Below, one piece after another: positions 23,994 to 46,714 of a DNA stretch of 64,000 nucleotides. Below the pieces are notes generated by a model, which worked only from the letters and a program-made list of their open reading frames with translations, was not told the origin of the DNA and made no database searches. The stretch lies in assembly GCA_020054205.1 (NCBI GenBank), contig JAGVLS010000003.1:1-64000 (forward strand), in the 5' to 3' direction. Numbering within the stretch: position 1 is the stretch's first letter; each line of letters starts with the position of its first letter. The translations under genes and the position numbers were made by a program. This DNA comes from Candidatus Obscuribacterales bacterium. GTDB lineage: Bacteria; Cyanobacteriota; Vampirovibrionia; Obscuribacterales; Obscuribacteraceae.

Positions 23994-24065
23994 ATGTGGG
24001 AAAAACCTTCATACGAAATTATCAATGTATCCAGTGAAATTACAGCATACGTATACAAGAAGTAG
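23994..24065 (+). CDS. pqqA: PQQ precursor peptide PqqA, 23 residues
   Basis: This tiny gene encodes the ribosomal peptide from which pyrroloquinoline quinone is built. The peptide starts MWEKPSY and ends SSEITAYVYKK. Glu15 and Tyr19 form the required E-x3-Y pair that PqqE cross-links. The N-terminal MW.KP pattern and the length fit known PqqA peptides. ATG 23994 has GGAG 11 bases upstream; an in-frame ATG at 23973 would add seven residues but has no SD. The stop codon overlaps the ribosome-binding region of pqqB. Being the first gene directly before pqqBCDE makes the call strong. Confidence 0.9.
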   Translation: MWEKPSYEIINVSSEITAYVYKK

Positions 24066-24074
24066 GGTCTAATT

Positions 24075-24974
24075 TTGTTTGTAAAACTTTTGGGGACCAT
24101 CGCTGGCGGTGGTTATCCACAATGGAATTGTGCTTGCAAACGTTGCAAAAAAGCAAGAAGAACAGAACCAAATAAAATTCGATATCATGCTTGTCTAGCT
24201 ATTAGCGTTGATAAACATAATTGGCATTTATTAAATGCTCCGCCAGATATTGCTCAACAAATTGAGGCGCATAAAGAATTACATCCAAATTTTAGTCGAA
24301 ATTCTCCCATAAAAAGTATATTACTGACAGATGCAGAATTAGATCATACGATTGGGCTTTTAGTACTTAGAGAAAATAGTAAATTTCGTATTTTTGGCAC
24401 AAAATCTGTTTTAAAAGCCTTGTCTCACTCATTTCCAGTGCGGCAAATTTTAAGTTCTTATGCCAGGCTTGATTTTCATGAAGTTAATGTAGGACAGTCT
24501 TTTGAATTGGAGCCAAACAAACTTGAAGTTACTCCAATTAAAAGTGGCAATAAAAAACCACGTTATATAAACGACTCAAATACAAATAACAATGACTGGG
24601 TAATTGCTTATCATATCAAAGATTTGCAAAGCCAAAAATCTATTGTGTACGCTCCTGCCATAGAAATTTGGGATAAACAAATAAAATCACATCTAGCACA
24701 AACAGAATATGCTTTCATTGATGGAACATTTTGGAGTGATGACGAAATGCTAGACACATGCAATATTGCTAAAAATGCTAGTGCAATGGGACACGTCCCA
24801 CTTAATGGCATTGGTAACACTCTTCACCAAATAAAAGAAATGAATTTACCTAAAACAATATTGGTTCATATTAATAATACCAACCCTATACTAGATTCAT
24901 CGTCAATGGAATACAAAAATATCACCGACCAGGGAATTGAAATTGGCAGTGAAGGAATGGAAATTGAATTATAG
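24075..24974 (+). CDS. pqqB: PqqB, metallo-beta-lactamase-fold PQQ biosynthesis protein
   Basis: A 299-residue member of the metallo-beta-lactamase fold needed for PQQ formation; in the family it is reported to hydroxylate the tyrosine of the cross-linked intermediate. The N-terminus VKLLGTIAGGGYPQWNCACKRC is diagnostic. DAELDHTIGLLVLRE, a modified metal-site region, and MGHVPLNGIG near the C-terminus also match. It starts at TTG (24075) with AGTAGGG overlapping the pqqA stop. The pqqC gene follows after 30 bases. Confidence 0.95.
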   Translation: MFVKLLGTIAGGGYPQWNCACKRCKKARRTEPNKIRYHACLAISVDKHNWHLLNAPPDIAQQIEAHKELHPNFSRNSPIKSILLTDAELDHTIGLLVLRENSKFRIFGTKSVLKALSHSFPVRQILSSYARLDFHEVNVGQSFELEPNKLEVTPIKSGNKKPRYINDSNTNNNDWVIAYHIKDLQSQKSIVYAPAIEIWDKQIKSHLAQTEYAFIDGTFWSDDEMLDTCNIAKNASAMGHVPLNGIGNTLHQIKEMNLPKTILVHINNTNPILDSSSMEYKNITDQGIEIGSEGMEIEL

Positions 24975-25004
24975 AATTTAACTAATTCAAAAGGAGGCAA
25001 GAAA

Positions 25005-25739
25005 TTGAATTTAACATCTAATATTGCTTGGTCTTGGACTGAATTTTTAGAAGAGTTAAAAGAAATTGGTCAAAAGCAGTATCACGACAAACATCCATTT
25101 CACATACGTATGCATGAGGGAAAACTCAGCAAAAATGACTTGCAATTATGGATAAAAAATCGTTTTTATTATCAAAAGAATATTCCCATCAAAGATGCTT
25201 TTATACTAACAAAATTACCATCTAGTACTGAAAGAAGAATTTGGATCAAAAGAATTATCGCTCATGATGGTGAAATAAATAACTTGGATAATCAAGGAGG
25301 TATTGAAGCTTGGCTATATTTAGGCGAAGCAGCAGGACTTGAGCGTAATTATATGCTCGATGATAGTAAAATTATTCCTTCTGTACGTTTTGCAGTAGAT
25401 GCGTATATAAATTTTTGCCGATTGCAACCTTGGTATCTGACTGTTGCCTCTTCACTTACAGAATTATTTGCACCAGATTTAATAAGTAATCGAATGAGCG
25501 CAATTAGTAAACATTATCCTTTTATTGATGATAATGGATTAAAATATTTCAGAACCCGAGTCAATCAAGCGAATAATGAATCAATTGAAGCATTGTCTTT
25601 ACTCAAACCAATAGCCATTAATAAGGAAATACAACTGGCGATTATCGAAGCTTTGTCTTTCAAATGCAATGTTCTTTGGTCACTATTAGACGCAATAGAC
25701 CTAGAGTGTAATAAAAAACAAATATATGCAAACAACTAA
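25005..25739 (+). CDS. pqqC: Pyrroloquinoline-quinone synthase PqqC
   Basis: A 244-residue cofactor-free oxidase that carries out the final ring closure and eight-electron oxidation to PQQ. Helical-bundle signatures are HPFHIRMHEGKLSKNDLQLW, NRFYYQKNIPIKDA, RRIIAHDG-like KRIIAHDGE, GGIEAWLYLGEAAGL, SSLTELFAPDLISNRM and RTRVNQANNESIEAL. It starts at TTG (25005) preceded by an excellent AAGGAGG. The 3' end overlaps pqqD by 14 bases. It is a stand-alone protein, not the PqqCD fusion seen in some methylotrophs. Confidence 0.95.
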   Translation: MNLTSNIAWSWTEFLEELKEIGQKQYHDKHPFHIRMHEGKLSKNDLQLWIKNRFYYQKNIPIKDAFILTKLPSSTERRIWIKRIIAHDGEINNLDNQGGIEAWLYLGEAAGLERNYMLDDSKIIPSVRFAVDAYINFCRLQPWYLTVASSLTELFAPDLISNRMSAISKHYPFIDDNGLKYFRTRVNQANNESIEALSLLKPIAINKEIQLAIIEALSFKCNVLWSLLDAIDLECNKKQIYANN

Positions 25740-25998
25740 ATCTAATTCAAAACCGAATATTAATAAGTTAGCAAAACTAAAATATGATGAGACACGTAAT
25801 CTCAATTTTATATTATTGCCCGAAAAGATCGTTAAGCTAAATGGAACTGCTAACGCCATACTTAGTTTATGTGATGGTACAAAAACTATAAGTGAAATAA
25901 TTGAACTCCTTGAAAAAAAGTTTTCTGTTGATGCTATTGAAAAAGATGTTATGGATTTTATAAGCGACGCGAAAAACCATGGATGGATTACAATCTAA
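25726..25998 (+). CDS. pqqD: PqqA-binding chaperone PqqD
   Basis: A 90-residue RiPP recognition element that presents PqqA to PqqE. The central block RNLNFILLPEKIVKLNGTANAILSLCDG...SEIIELLEKKF matches the winged PqqD fold, where the strand after the N-terminal helix binds the leader. It overlaps pqqC by 14 bases and pqqE by 20, so all three are translationally coupled. The length is usual for a free-standing PqqD. Confidence 0.93.
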   Translation: MQTTKSNSKPNINKLAKLKYDETRNLNFILLPEKIVKLNGTANAILSLCDGTKTISEIIELLEKKFSVDAIEKDVMDFISDAKNHGWITI

Positions 25999-27100
25999 AG
26001 AAAAAAATCCTTTAAGCGGCATTGCCCCTCCTTATGCTTTATTGGCAGAGCTAACACATTCTTGTCCATTACATTGTCTCTATTGCTCTAACCCTATTAA
26101 TTTAGTCAAAAAAGAAAAAGAACTTTCTACTTCTCATTGGCTAAATATCATTGAACAAGCAAGTGACTTAGGGATAATGCAAATGCATTTTTCTGGTGGC
26201 GAGCCACTAATAAGAACCGATCTAGAACAATTAATAAATAAAACTCGCGACCTAAACATCTATTCAAATTTAATTACTAGTGGAATTGGTTTGACTCAAA
26301 ATAGACTTTCAAATTTAATCACATCAGGCATCAACCACATACAATTAAGCATTCAATCACATGAAGCCGTGTCGACAAAAGTAATTACTAATAGCGAATG
26401 TTTTCAAGCCAAACAATCAATTGCTTCGTTAATTAAAGAGTCTCAATTACCATTTACTATTAACATAGTACTACATGCTTTGAATTTAGATAATATTGAA
26501 GAGATTATCGAAATGTGTATAAGTTGGGGAGCTCATCGTATAGAATTAGCGAATACACAATATTATGGTTTTGCTCTTGCAAATCAATCTGTGTTATTAC
26601 CGAATAAATTACAGATTGAAAAAGCTTTTGCTATTTACCAAAGAAAAAAGCAAGAATATGGAAACAAAATAGAAATAATTTGGGTGATACCAGATTATTT
26701 TGAAGAGTACCCTAAACCATGCATGGGTGGTTGGGGACTCATTCAGCTAACAATTACACCTGCTGGGCAAGTATTACCTTGCCCAGCAGCTTCAATTATT
26801 TCATCCATTAGTTTTGAAAATGTTAGAGAAAAATCTTTAGACTGGATTTGGTACGAATCATCTTCTTTCAATATATTTAGAGGCGATATGTGGATGAAAG
26901 AACCATGTAAGTCATGTATTTACCGTTTTGATGATTACGGGGGCTGTCGCTGCCAGGCGTTTGCAATTACAGGTAGTGCTTCTAATACCGATCCTGTATG
27001 CAAATATTCACCATATCGTCCTTTGATCGATAATGCTATTTCTACAACAAATTCCAGAGAAAATATTTTGGCAAATATAAAATACCGTAATCTTGACTAG
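25979..27100 (+). CDS. pqqE: Radical SAM PqqA peptide cyclase PqqE
   Basis: A 373-residue radical SAM/SPASM enzyme forming the Glu-Tyr C-C bond in PqqA. The radical SAM cluster motif is CPLHCLYC, with C29, C33 and C36 in the standard Cx3Cx2C spacing, followed by HFSGGEPLIRTDLEQL. The C-terminal SPASM region carries CMGGWGLIQLTITPAGQVLPC, CKSC and GGCRCQAF...PVC for auxiliary clusters. It ends the operon; pqqF or another protease gene is not adjacent. The start ATG 25979 lies inside pqqD and lacks a good SD, consistent with coupling. Confidence 0.95.
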   Translation: MDGLQSKEKNPLSGIAPPYALLAELTHSCPLHCLYCSNPINLVKKEKELSTSHWLNIIEQASDLGIMQMHFSGGEPLIRTDLEQLINKTRDLNIYSNLITSGIGLTQNRLSNLITSGINHIQLSIQSHEAVSTKVITNSECFQAKQSIASLIKESQLPFTINIVLHALNLDNIEEIIEMCISWGAHRIELANTQYYGFALANQSVLLPNKLQIEKAFAIYQRKKQEYGNKIEIIWVIPDYFEEYPKPCMGGWGLIQLTITPAGQVLPCPAASIISSISFENVREKSLDWIWYESSSFNIFRGDMWMKEPCKSCIYRFDDYGGCRCQAFAITGSASNTDPVCKYSPYRPLIDNAISTTNSRENILANIKYRNLD

Positions 27101-27209: not shown

Positions 27210-28682
27210 ATGGCAAATCTTCAAGATTTAAATAAGCATGCAAGTTCAATAGGGCTTCTTGTAGACCGATGTGTAAAACGCGAGGAGCCTTTCGGCACAG
27301 TTTGGCTTGTTGATAATAATCGCGTAGCAACATGTGCGCATCTAGTAGTACTTTTTGAAGAATTTTTACCTGGACTAAAAGTTAGATTTCCTCATATTCA
27401 ACAAGAGTGGGAAATAGTAGATATGCTTTTCCATCCTCGCTTTGATCGCAAATTAGCCCACGAACTTGCTAAGCGTGCTCTTTTAGAACCAGTACCGTCC
27501 CCTGCATTGCAAGATCATAATCTTGTAATTTTGAAGCTTTCGCGAGAGTTATCGTCCCTAAAACAAGAGTCCGTGACAACATTTAACAAAAAAATAGGAA
27601 TAGCTCCACTGCCTCGAACAAAAGGGCTATCTGGTGAAGTAGATGAATTAGGACTTGCCATTGTTATTCAAACAATAACCAATTCACGCAAAGATGGCTC
27701 AATTATTATTACTGATGAAAGAAATAGACCGATAGCAAAACTATTCTGCAAAGAAGGTAAAATACTTTATGCTAAATATGGGCAATTATCAAACGAATCT
27801 GCAGTTTACCAAATGTTTGCCCAACAATTATCTGGTCATTTCAATTTCAAAGCACAGACCAAACCTGATTGGCCTGTAAAAGATATTATTATTCGCGCTA
27901 CTGATAGTCTTATTTTAGATGCTCATCGCCGATTAGATGAAATTCCAAAATTACTTTCACAGTTGGGTGGAACAGGAGTTGCTTATGTGAGAGTTTTTGA
28001 ATCAGTAAATTTGGATATCCTCCCATCAGAAACAAAAAATAGTGCTGATACTATTTGGTATCATCTTGATGGTGGTATTTCAATTGATCAATTGTGGCAA
28101 TTCGTCAACTTGGACGATCATTCAATATATCAAGCATTAATTGCTCTTCTTGATACGAAACAAATAAGACCAGTTTCTTTTGTAAGCAATGATCTTAATC
28201 CGATGCAGCCACTAGAATTAGCTCCCCATCTTAAATTAGCTCCATGGGATGAAATAGTAAGTTTATCAACTCATCCTACGGTAGGAAGAAGTGAAGCAAG
28301 AAAAGGAAATTTAGTGGGACTTTTACGCCCTAACGATCCCTGGCATTTACTTCACAATATCAAATTACCATATAAAGCAGCTGGTAGCCCTTTACTTAAA
28401 AATGACCAAGTAATTGGTATGCATTGTGGCTTACTTCCACTTGATCCTAAATTACATGCTTTGCCGTCACATTTAAATCAACTCTTATGGGTAGAGTCAA
28501 TTTATCAATGCTTAAATAGCAAAGGTAAAATTACTGGCTTAAAACCAAGCAAAAAATCTGTCGGTATGCTTATACCTAAAACAGATGATAGTTCAAGTGG
28601 CTATAAAAAGTGTGTCAAATGCCACTCAAGTATGCAAAAAAACGCTCAATTTTGTGGTGCATGTGGACGAAAATTTAACTAA
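27210..28682 (+). CDS. Trypsin-like protease interrupted by a DUF4388 domain, with C-terminal zinc ribbon
   Basis: A 490-residue protein without a signal peptide. The N-terminal lobe resembles a trypsin-fold protease with His44 in ATCAHLVV and Asp102 in DHNLVILKL. The Ser393 half appears only near the end, in AAGSPLLKNDQVIGMHCG. Between them (about 141-345) lies a DUF4388/PatA-like region (SRKDGSIIITDE...IAKLFCKEGKILYAKYG...SGHFNFKAQTKP) followed by helices. The C-terminus is a zinc ribbon (Cys468, Cys471, Cys482, Cys485). The catalytic assignment is by pattern; the Ser motif lacks the canonical GDSGG. The gene overlaps the convergent HTH-PAS gene by 8 bases. Confidence 0.7.
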   Translation: MANLQDLNKHASSIGLLVDRCVKREEPFGTVWLVDNNRVATCAHLVVLFEEFLPGLKVRFPHIQQEWEIVDMLFHPRFDRKLAHELAKRALLEPVPSPALQDHNLVILKLSRELSSLKQESVTTFNKKIGIAPLPRTKGLSGEVDELGLAIVIQTITNSRKDGSIIITDERNRPIAKLFCKEGKILYAKYGQLSNESAVYQMFAQQLSGHFNFKAQTKPDWPVKDIIIRATDSLILDAHRRLDEIPKLLSQLGGTGVAYVRVFESVNLDILPSETKNSADTIWYHLDGGISIDQLWQFVNLDDHSIYQALIALLDTKQIRPVSFVSNDLNPMQPLELAPHLKLAPWDEIVSLSTHPTVGRSEARKGNLVGLLRPNDPWHLLHNIKLPYKAAGSPLLKNDQVIGMHCGLLPLDPKLHALPSHLNQLLWVESIYQCLNSKGKITGLKPSKKSVGMLIPKTDDSSSGYKKCVKCHSSMQKNAQFCGACGRKFN

Positions 28683-29370
28683 GTGACCTACATGCTTCTT
28701 TTTTGTCTAATGATTGTGGCGCATCACAAGCGTCACGAAATAAAATAACACCACCATGTAATTTACCGGCTTTATCTACAACTGGACGTGCACTTACTTT
28801 CAACAAACGAGTTGTTTTTACATTTTTCACTAGCACTTCAGCCCGGTCCACTTTTTCTCCACCAATTGCTCTAGCTAAAGGTAATTGGCGGCTGGGATAA
28901 AGAGATTCACCATTAGGGGTATATATACCATAAATTTCAGACCAATCATCAGGAGATACTTCCATAATACCAAGTCCTGTAAGGCGTTCGGCTGTGGAAT
29001 TGAACAAAACAAATTTTCCTTCTGAATTACAAACAATAAACCCATCAGAAGAACAATCAGAAAAATAATTTATTATTTGCATCTGCAACGGCGTGGGAGT
29101 ATCTGACTTAAGTAATAAATCAATATCTAAAGACGATGCCATTTTCAATTCTGTATCATGTACTAAATCAGAAGTAGAGACATTAAGAGCCTTTGATAAT
29201 ATATTTAAATTTCTCAATGAAGGATGGCGAGCTGCTCTTTCCACATCACAAATATATGATCTAGCTAAGCCAGATCTTTTAGCTAATTCTTCCTGAGAAA
29301 AAGAATTAGCACAACGATATTCTTTCAAAACAGAACAACATGTAGCGGCAAAATATTCAGGAAATTCCAT
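28675..29370 (-). CDS. XRE-family HTH regulator with PAS sensor domain
   Basis: A 231-residue cytosolic regulator. Residues about 8-72 form an XRE helix-turn-helix (SFSQEELAKRSGLARSYICDVER...LSKALNVS). A PAS domain covers about 95-220 (DGFIVCNSEGKFVLFNSTAERLTG ... GKLHGGVILFRD), with an ARPV strand of the kind seen in light, oxygen or ligand sensors. No kinase or output beyond the HTH is present, so ligand or redox sensing probably alters DNA binding directly. Its 3' end overlaps the protease gene by 8 bases, a convergent antisense overlap. Confidence 0.9.
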   Translation of the reverse strand: MEFPEYFAATCCSVLKEYRCANSFSQEELAKRSGLARSYICDVERAARHPSLRNLNILSKALNVSTSDLVHDTELKMASSLDIDLLLKSDTPTPLQMQIINYFSDCSSDGFIVCNSEGKFVLFNSTAERLTGLGIMEVSPDDWSEIYGIYTPNGESLYPSRQLPLARAIGGEKVDRAEVLVKNVKTTRLLKVSARPVVDKAGKLHGGVILFRDACDAPQSLDKKEACRSLS

Positions 29371-29496: not shown

Positions 29497-30198
29497 CTAA
29501 ATACCTGATACCAACCTTGCAATGAAAAAAGCCACGGTGGCGGCTATAGCGCCAACAAAGAGAGTCTGTATTGCACTTAAAATTGGCTTATTTCCTATAT
29601 ATATTCCTTTTATAAAACCAAATATAAATAAGGCTAAAAGTGTAAGAAAAATAGAAGTTAATAGTGAAATATTTGCATTATTAATCACCATATAAGGAAA
29701 TAAAGGAATTAAACCACCAGCAATATAAGAAATGGCAATAGTAATAGCGCTAATTACAGCTTGTTTGGGTTTTGGTTCATCTAAAGACAATTCAAATTTC
29801 ATCATAAAATTTACCCAGTCTTTAGGTCTTTTCTCTAATGAGTATACAAGCGGTTCTATATCAGCATCGCTAAGCCCATAAGCGCTAAAAATTTCCCTTA
29901 CTTCTTTTTTTTCAGCCTCGGGTATTTCAGTTATTTCTCTCCATTCTCTACGCTTTTCGCTTGTATAATGCTCCGCATCACCTTTTGCTGCTAAATAACC
30001 ACCTAAGCCCATGGCTATGGCGCCAGCTGCTATTTCAGCTAAACCAGCAGTAATGATTATCTTATTTACAAGTATTGCACCAGATAATCCTGCCGCCAAT
30101 GCAAACGGAACTGTAAGACCATCAGAGATCCCAATAACAATATCTCTAACTAATTGCCTAGCAGTAAAATGACGTTCAATATGGGGATTTGGTGGCAT
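29497..30198 (-). CDS. VIT1/CCC1-family iron or manganese transporter
   Basis: A 233-residue membrane protein. The family signature GISDGLTVPFALAAGLSGA forms helix 1, followed by AEIAAGAIAMGLGGYLAAKGDAEHY and a cytoplasmic helical metal-binding region (KKEVREIFSAYGL...MMKFELSLDEPKP). Three more hydrophobic helices complete the five-helix topology. Members move Fe2+ or Mn2+ out of the cytosol. ATG 30198 is the first start. It stands alone between the HTH-PAS gene and the divergent ABC operon. Confidence 0.92.
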   Translation of the reverse strand: MPPNPHIERHFTARQLVRDIVIGISDGLTVPFALAAGLSGAILVNKIIITAGLAEIAAGAIAMGLGGYLAAKGDAEHYTSEKRREWREITEIPEAEKKEVREIFSAYGLSDADIEPLVYSLEKRPKDWVNFMMKFELSLDEPKPKQAVISAITIAISYIAGGLIPLFPYMVINNANISLLTSIFLTLLALFIFGFIKGIYIGNKPILSAIQTLFVGAIAATVAFFIARLVSGI

Positions 30199-45010: not shown

Positions 45011-46714
45011 TTAAGTATTTTTTGCTATATCGGAAAATAAAATTACTGGTTTGTGAGCTATAGAAGAATATCTTTTTGCATAAGTGCCATAAGTTAAAAG
45101 AGTATCTAAATCACGACAATCATCAGGAATACTAGCAATACCTGATGATAGCATTATCTGCATACCTTGCATCAAGGGAGATAAAGGCGCCTTATTTAGC
45201 ATATCGTACATTCTGTTTGCAAATACATAAGCTCCAGAACTATCAGTTTCTGGCAATAACATAATTAAACTTGATTTTTGGAAATGAGCTAACAAATCAA
45301 GTTTACGCTTTCGTTTATCTATGCGTTCACAAGCTTCATTTAAAGCCTGTGCTGAAAGCCTTAAATAAGCACCCTGTTTTTCGTCATAAACTCCCAATTC
45401 AAAAACAATAATAGAAAACCGCCCACCAGATCTTTCAAATCGATAAAATTCTCTTTGTAATAAATATAGAAAAGCCCCATAACTAAAAATACCTGTGGTT
45501 GGTTCAGACAGTGAAGATACAGCATTATAAATTAGTCCTGGATCAACCTGAATAGTCTCAGAAATACCCAACGATACATCCTGAATTGGCTTTGGAGCGA
45601 TTGTTACTAAATGTGCGTTTAAAAGGCTGTACATAATAGGAATCCATTCGGACTTTACAGTAGGATGTTTGCGTAAAACATCAGATAGCGCACTTCTATT
45701 ATCTATCGCGTCAAAAAATTTACGTTGGCTAATTATATCAATTTGAACAATGCCAGAAAGCATTTGTTCAAATTGAGCTGGTGTAATTGCTAAATCTATT
45801 TTTTGCAAATATGAATCTTGTGTGAGTCCTTGAGCTTGTAAAAAGCTAATTTGTTTTTCTAAAATAAGGCATTCATTGAATAAAGTCTCAAAATTCTTTT
45901 CAATACTGCGATGCGTAGTATCTTCACCAAGAGCAAAGTGAAATTCACCCTCCCTCCAAGTAATCACATCTAATACTGCCGTATCACCCTTTGTATCAAG
46001 CGTTGAGGCATGAATGATAATACCGCTTTTAAAAAATATTTCTGCTGCGCCAAGTCCGCCATAAATGGACAATCTTCCAGTCAGCATTTTTTGATGAATA
46101 TGACGCATTAAGTTTGCAACACTAATATTTTTCAAACTTCCAGCTAAATCTGTTGAACTTGTCTCAGCATTTGAAGCAATATTTGCAGCTGCTGCTAAAG
46201 TACTCATAGTGTTTGCAACTTCATTTGCAGCATTAGGCAGAGGAGCATTATTGGTAATTATTGGTGGTTTCGGAAAAACATTATCGTTGCTAACAGATGG
46301 TGGCTGTTGATAATCAGAAATTGTTGTTGATTGAGCAGAAGCATTCGAATCAGGCTTTGCTCCAGTGTTTACATTTGCGCCGATTTGAGAAGATGTATTA
46401 TATTCTTTATCACATTCCAACATGACTAAATTATAAATTAGACTTAAATCGCCACTTTCATGTCCCCATAAAAGTTGCGAATTCTCACCTTCCCCTTTAT
46501 AAAGCATCCATATTGTTGGTTTATCCACAATCACCTTAGCAGTAAGCACAAATAAAGTAGGCTTTTCCGGCTTCATCCAGGCAATTTCTACAAAACGTCC
46601 ACGATTTTTAGCAGCTTCTGAAAATAAAAAATGAATATCTTCTTCGCCAGGTATCTGAGACAACTTAGCTAAATTTATATTGGCAGTACTTTGTTTTTTT
46701 CGAAACTGATACAT
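45011..46714 (-). CDS. Shared-N-domain protein with DUF4388 and degenerate GGDEF
   Basis: A 567-residue cytosolic multi-domain protein. The N-terminal domain (20-105) is homologous to that of the protein at 41-42 kb. A low-complexity linker (to about 185) follows, then a DUF4388 domain (about 190-310: SLKNISVANLMRHIHQKMLTGRLSIYGG...AEIFFKSGIIIHAST), a helical region, and a C-terminal GGDEF-like domain (about 395-560: GIFSYGAFLYLLQREFYRFERSGGRFSIIVFE...IMLLPETDSSGAYVFANRMY). The GGDEF signature is replaced by FQKSS, so it should not make c-di-GMP. It may act as a sensor or scaffold. Confidence 0.75.
   Translation of the reverse strand: MYQFRKKQSTANINLAKLSQIPGEEDIHFLFSEAAKNRGRFVEIAWMKPEKPTLFVLTAKVIVDKPTIWMLYKGEGENSQLLWGHESGDLSLIYNLVMLECDKEYNTSSQIGANVNTGAKPDSNASAQSTTISDYQQPPSVSNDNVFPKPPIITNNAPLPNAANEVANTMSTLAAAANIASNAETSSTDLAGSLKNISVANLMRHIHQKMLTGRLSIYGGLGAAEIFFKSGIIIHASTLDTKGDTAVLDVITWREGEFHFALGEDTTHRSIEKNFETLFNECLILEKQISFLQAQGLTQDSYLQKIDLAITPAQFEQMLSGIVQIDIISQRKFFDAIDNRSALSDVLRKHPTVKSEWIPIMYSLLNAHLVTIAPKPIQDVSLGISETIQVDPGLIYNAVSSLSEPTTGIFSYGAFLYLLQREFYRFERSGGRFSIIVFELGVYDEKQGAYLRLSAQALNEACERIDKRKRKLDLLAHFQKSSLIMLLPETDSSGAYVFANRMYDMLNKAPLSPLMQGMQIMLSSGIASIPDDCRDLDTLLTYGTYAKRYSSIAHKPVILFSDIAKNT

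Follow-up and report, generated by a model that had tools for sequence, protein, structure and literature searches.

A predicted pseudoprotease with a PATAN and winged-helix module in the linker between its two trypsin-like barrels, from the bacterial order Obscuribacterales

Introduction

Within a 64,000-nt stretch of DNA from a Candidatus Obscuribacterales bacterium (hereafter the window), an ATG-started open reading frame on the forward strand (27210-28682) encodes a protein of 490 aa that raises an unusual question: can a protease fold be interrupted by a signalling-type domain, and if so, is the interrupted protein still an enzyme that the inserted domain might control? An initial annotation, made from the sequence, had proposed a protease fold split by a DUF4388 domain, a catalytic triad of His44, Asp102 and Ser393, and control of activity through ligand or partner binding. 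We examined these proposals by structure prediction, by alignment to uninterrupted paralogues, and by a survey of relatives and their gene neighbourhoods. The gene is real, and its protein is conserved (dN of 0.31-0.37 against orthologues, dS being too high for an estimate). Promoter and terminator scans returned chance-level signals only. The features that we identified are collected in Table 1.

Table 1. Coordinates of the gene, its domains and key residues in the window, with the basis of each assignment
Feature	Position	Strand	Basis
Whole gene, predicted trypsin-fold pseudoprotease with PATAN insert	27210..28682	+	490 aa
Beta-barrel 1 of trypsin fold, residues 1-115	27210..27554	+	AlphaFold2 model, superposition over 1-441, paralogue alignment
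His44, equivalent of the catalytic His	27339..27341	+	Alignment; His in 34/35 relatives
Asn104, position of the catalytic Asp	27519..27521	+	Asn in 35/35 split relatives; Asp in uninterrupted paralogues
Inter-barrel linker insert, residues about 116-334	27555..28211	+	AlphaFold2 model and paralogue alignment
DUF4388 / PATAN, residues 141-244	27630..27941	+	Pfam PF14332, E 9e-10
Winged-helix domain, residues about 249-324	27954..28181	+	AlphaFold2 model of the insert alone and structure matches
Beta-barrel 2 of trypsin fold, residues 335-441	28212..28532	+	AlphaFold2 model, superposition, paralogue alignment
Ala391, position of the nucleophile Ser	28380..28382	+	Paralogue alignment
Ser393, two positions past the nucleophile	28386..28388	+	Paralogue alignment
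C-terminal zinc ribbon (C468, C471, C482, C485)	28602..28679	+	Sub-cut-off Pfam score and Cys conservation
Convergent HTH-PAS regulator gene	28675..29370	-	Neighbour at 4/6 orthologous loci

A trypsin-like fold in two parts

Trypsin_2 left a sub-threshold trace in Pfam (15.4 bits against a cut-off of 27.6), a sequence search of the PDB returned no match, and a PDB search with the protein's profile gave only chance-level or zinc-ribbon matches. An AlphaFold2 model was built from an alignment of 35 relatives (pLDDT 86.4, pTM 0.82), and one superposition on solved structures spanned residues 1 to 441, with 172-202 residues aligned at an rmsd of 2.5-3.8 A and Z scores of 17.8-19.6. The chains matched were RsgI9 S1C (Z 19.6), MucD, HtrA1, DegQ, DegP, chymotrypsins, and MamO. 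Since each lobe comprises only about 110 residues, a single superposition of this extent needs both lobes, with the approximately 220 intervening residues mostly skipped. According to the model, the protein has a trypsin/chymotrypsin (S1-like) fold of two packed beta-barrels forming one domain. The proposed split of a protease fold is thus borne out: both lobes superpose on single trypsin-like domains and are related parts of one double-barrel match.

The position of the insert was resolved by aligning the split family to a set of 21 uninterrupted paralogues that cover both barrels. The spacer between the barrels measures about 8 residues in the uninterrupted paralogue, compared with about 220 in the split family, and the alignment of the second barrel is gap-free, anchored by HLLH, a Gly, and HCG. 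The insert sits in the linker that joins the barrels and not within either barrel. The suggestion of a signalling-type domain inside the enzyme fold is therefore correct insofar as the domain lies between the two halves, but the paralogues place it in a linker rather than in a barrel. A PATAN and winged-helix module in the linker of a trypsin fold constitutes a natural, clean case of domain insertion.

The first part of the module scored 39.1 bits as DUF4388 (cut-off 25). We equate it with PATAN, as the two names denote one domain (InterPro entry). In the best PF14332 matches of the phylum, DUF4388 contains a long internal insertion and a receiver domain comes after it, the same order as in PatA and PixG. 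In the window protein, Pfam gave no match to a receiver domain (REC, PF00072), none to a PDZ domain up to E 1, and none to DUF4384 (PF14326). The PATAN domain has been described previously (PMC7690835, PMC11580455). When the insert was modelled alone (pLDDT 86), its second part matched winged-helix structures with Z scores from 8.9 to 7.0; comparison of the PATAN part with solved structures returned no clear match, which does not imply a novel fold. The C-terminal zinc ribbon noted in the initial annotation (CxxC...CxxC, residues 465-488) scores under the Pfam cut-off, yet it is upheld by its four cysteines, which are almost invariant among relatives. The window encodes a second DUF4388 protein, of 567 aa, in which the domain is combined with GGDEF (45011-46714, reverse strand), and the genome as a whole has eight DUF4388 matches.

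Loss of the catalytic residues

The uninterrupted paralogues display the triad motifs TCGH, KFD, and GDSG, the last in 21/21 sequences, and provide a reference for each catalytic position. The assignment of His44 as the catalytic-His equivalent agrees with this reference, as it aligns with the paralogue His. The remaining two assignments do not: Asp102 and Ser393 are present at those positions, almost 300 residues apart, but the triad was misassigned. Asp102 is variable among relatives (K, D, Q, E, P, N, S, or R), and the window segment HNLVIL aligned with the paralogue FDVALL places Asn104 at the Asp position. Likewise, KAAGSPL aligned with GDSGAPI places Ala391 at the nucleophile position, with Ser393 two places beyond it.

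Position 391 is Ala in 22 of the 34 relatives that reach it (Ser in 7, Cys in 3, Thr in 1, and Ile in 1). Position 393 is Cys in 17 of the split relatives, Ser in 13, Thr in 2, and Ala in 2, and its equivalent in the intact paralogues is Ala in 10, Ser in 5, Thr in 4, and Cys in 2. Because the intact paralogues carry a small residue at this position beside the true Ser, no catalytic role is needed there. Of a complete His-Asp-Ser triad with GxSG, the window protein retains His44 alone. With its Asp replaced by Asn104 and its Ser by Ala391, we predict that it is an inactive pseudoprotease. The proposal that the insert controls enzyme activity is consequently unsupported for this protein, as the absence of the catalytic Ser and Asp makes regulation of its own proteolysis unlikely. 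Loss of activity may not extend to the whole family, since seven relatives, all of them long forms (described below), combine Ser391 with Asn104, and these could retain traces of activity. A more distant split paralogue of 854 aa in the same genome (L023, G000:C11:153868-155214) appears by eye to have a different pattern of loss, with Ser at the His position, the Asp apparently retained, and His at the Ser position.

Distribution and relatives of the split family

Of the 60 nearest genomes, 39 contain matches to the split family: the window's own, each of the 35 remaining members of its family, and three further genomes of the order. The other 21, which belong to different families of the class, gave no match. 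When 84,980 species' genomes were scanned, 35 loci were obtained, in records named nearly always as Melainabacteria, Obscuribacterales, Obscuribacter, or Cyanobacteria, with a few bins under unspecific or other names. In a broader set of 292 genomes from the phylum, what matched outside the Obscuribacterales group was for the most part the PATAN part or the zinc ribbon. The split family was found only in Obscuribacterales (Melainabacteria), a distribution that by itself makes it very probable that the host belongs to this order. Two contigs labelled Actinobacteria and Proteobacteria (L058 and L064) carry it as well, probably through binning or labelling errors. A mobile-element origin was dropped, as viral contigs, phage records, and plasmid records held no relative.

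The majority of relatives are long forms of about 700-900 aa, in which the zinc ribbon is followed by a transmembrane helix and a DUF4384 domain. In a maximum-likelihood tree of the two barrels, a single branch (100/100) divides the split forms from the uninterrupted paralogues, and the short forms (the window protein and L031-L036) constitute one clade (100/100) among the long forms. The window's clade is thus a derived soluble form that ends after the zinc ribbon and is nested among long forms.

An uninterrupted relative is encoded in the same genome (C16:118698-119999). Its Trypsin_2 domain (44.7 bits, E 3e-11) is followed by a hydrophobic helix and a weak DUF4384 match, and a DUF4384 gene lies downstream. 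It has the same two barrels as the split form, and its C-terminal DUF4384 is found in the long split forms as well. Unlike the window protein, it has an intact His/Asp/Ser triad, lacks PATAN, and is membrane-anchored.

Gene neighbourhood

A gene for a DUF4384 protein predicted to be secreted adjoins the long form on the same strand in 25/25 loci with enough flank, lying downstream in 24 and upstream in 1. These neighbours (cluster c1, L037-L063) encode proteins of about 300 residues, and the four that were read have similar C-terminal motifs (e.g. VLHIDVDLHHI). In one relative (genome G019), the split gene is separated from the DUF4384 gene by a caspase-TPR gene (L108:3795-6293, reverse strand), whose product has 832 aa (Peptidase_C14, E 8e-17).

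The short form of the window is without the membrane part, the DUF4384 part, and the DUF4384 neighbour gene, and has no fixed genetic partner besides a frequent HTH-PAS neighbour, which is convergent at 4/6 of its orthologous loci. The HTH-PAS gene does overlap the 3' end, as annotated, tail to tail by 8 bases; this is an ordinary convergent overlap. It is adjoined by a VIT1-family gene (29497-30198, reverse strand; PF01988, E 2.7e-69).

Upstream lies a complete pqqABCDE operon for pyrroloquinoline quinone (23994-27100, forward strand), with PqqB, C, D, and E recognized as NCBIfam equivalogs and a pqqA candidate of 23 residues, MWEKPSYEIINVSSEITAYVYKK, at 23994-24065. The winged helix of the insert structurally resembles RiPP recognition elements (PqqD-like), and pqqD lies upstream. 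We set aside a role in PQQ biology, since no match emerged when profiles were compared against the window's PqqD (probability 0.6%) and pqq genes adjoin only 1/6 orthologous loci (L036).

Discussion

We consider it probable that the window protein is a non-catalytic cytoplasmic scaffold of trypsin fold, carrying a PATAN and winged-helix insert in its linker and derived from membrane-anchored forms, and that its function is probably one of binding or regulation and not of cleavage. The scaffold function is what we infer beyond the features that were computed, namely the split fold, the insert position, the Asp and Ser replacement, the nesting, the protein conservation, and the distribution. In this scenario, a PATAN and winged-helix module would have been inserted into the linker between the barrels, with a zinc ribbon after them. 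The ancestor would have had the order trypsin-fold/PATAN, zinc ribbon, transmembrane helix, and DUF4384, from which the membrane and DUF4384 parts were presumably lost. A peptide, protein, or metal ligand would be bound in the inter-barrel cleft, where His44 and strand 403-407 (GxHCG) are both conserved. As the insert bridges the two barrels, such binding could alter the contacts of PATAN or the winged helix with a partner. PATAN and the winged helix may thereby provide the interaction surface or output. Likely partners would be a PATAN client or an active paralogous protease, by analogy with the activation of MamE by MamO.

Several other readings have to be weighed against this scaffold. The protein could be a new kind of allosteric sensor whose dead cleft, through halves joined via PATAN and the winged helix, couples ligand binding directly to the binding of a PATAN partner. 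We regard this as unlikely; if true, a pair of periplasmic DUF4384 domains would, in the long forms, be linked through the membrane with a PATAN client in the cytoplasm. A related reading, and a special case of the favoured one, is that the degenerate cleft binds the active paralogue, or the substrate or product of that protease, and reports on, activates, or restrains it. Dead and active forms have the two-barrel fold in common, as well as the HCG strand, and intact and split genes lie within a few kb of each other in two assemblies (G003 contig 376 and G014 contig 9, the latter with the intact protease, a secreted DUF4384 gene, and the split form in a row), but in the window's genome the two genes are not co-located, and we consider this pairing unlikely.

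It is quite unlikely, in our estimation, that the protein acts mainly through a PATAN-type output on type IV pilus motors, with the barrels as a structural platform only. This reading draws on the PATAN of cyanobacterial response regulators, which binds the pilus motor PilB (PMC7690835, PMC10519157), and is consistent with the distribution of invariant columns: across all 35 relatives there are 16, of which 9 fall within residues 139-183, a count to which columns beyond residue 186 could not contribute since one truncated row ends there. No pilus gene was noticed adjoining the gene, however. Very unlikely is an active protease gated by the PATAN insert that would use His44 and a displaced nucleophile at Ser393 (Cys in many relatives). 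The retention of His44 in 34/35 relatives and of Ser, Cys, or Thr at position 393 in 32/34 would suit such an enzyme, but this position is two residues past the nucleophile and varies in intact paralogues beside the true Ser, and the Asp position is an invariant Asn.

The family is of broader interest. The same genome offers a control for the insertion, in the form of a paralogue that lacks the insert and is apparently active, and as catalytic loss accompanies the insertion across a bacterial order, the conversion of a protease to a scaffold becomes testable. Moreover, PATAN, known from cyanobacterial regulators that control pili, occurs here in a new context in non-photosynthetic relatives.

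Comparison with known systems

The literature that we searched held no description of the split architecture nor of DUF4388 in proteases; the one paper there that names DUF4388 is on nitrite reductases. HtrA/DegP proteases have an active triad and PDZ domains. They share the double-barrel with the window protein (HtrA1 Z 18.9, DegQ 18.4, DegP 18.1) and differ from it in both of these respects. The PATAN-receiver regulators (PixG, PixE, and PatA type) share the DUF4388/PATAN domain; in these REC is fused to PATAN, whereas in the window protein PATAN lies in a protease fold and REC is absent. The best structural match of the joined lobes, RsgI9 S1C of Clostridium thermocellum (PDB 7sjy), is a protease-like domain to which a capacity for cellulose binding has been ascribed (PMC12203970), but it is part of an extracellular anti-sigma-factor sensor with an NTF2 fusion and without PATAN.

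MamO is a trypsin-like pseudoprotease of magnetotactic bacteria that activates its active paralogue MamE and binds a transition metal through a surface di-histidine (PMC4794232). The window protein resembles MamO (PDB 5hma, Z 17.8) in its trypsin fold, degenerate active site, and, as we propose, non-catalytic role. MamO differs in having no known PATAN insert, in its metal binding, and in belonging to the magnetosome system. A degenerate active site in a trypsin fold is common to both; the repurposing of this fold is a known theme, of which the PATAN-split architecture is a new form.
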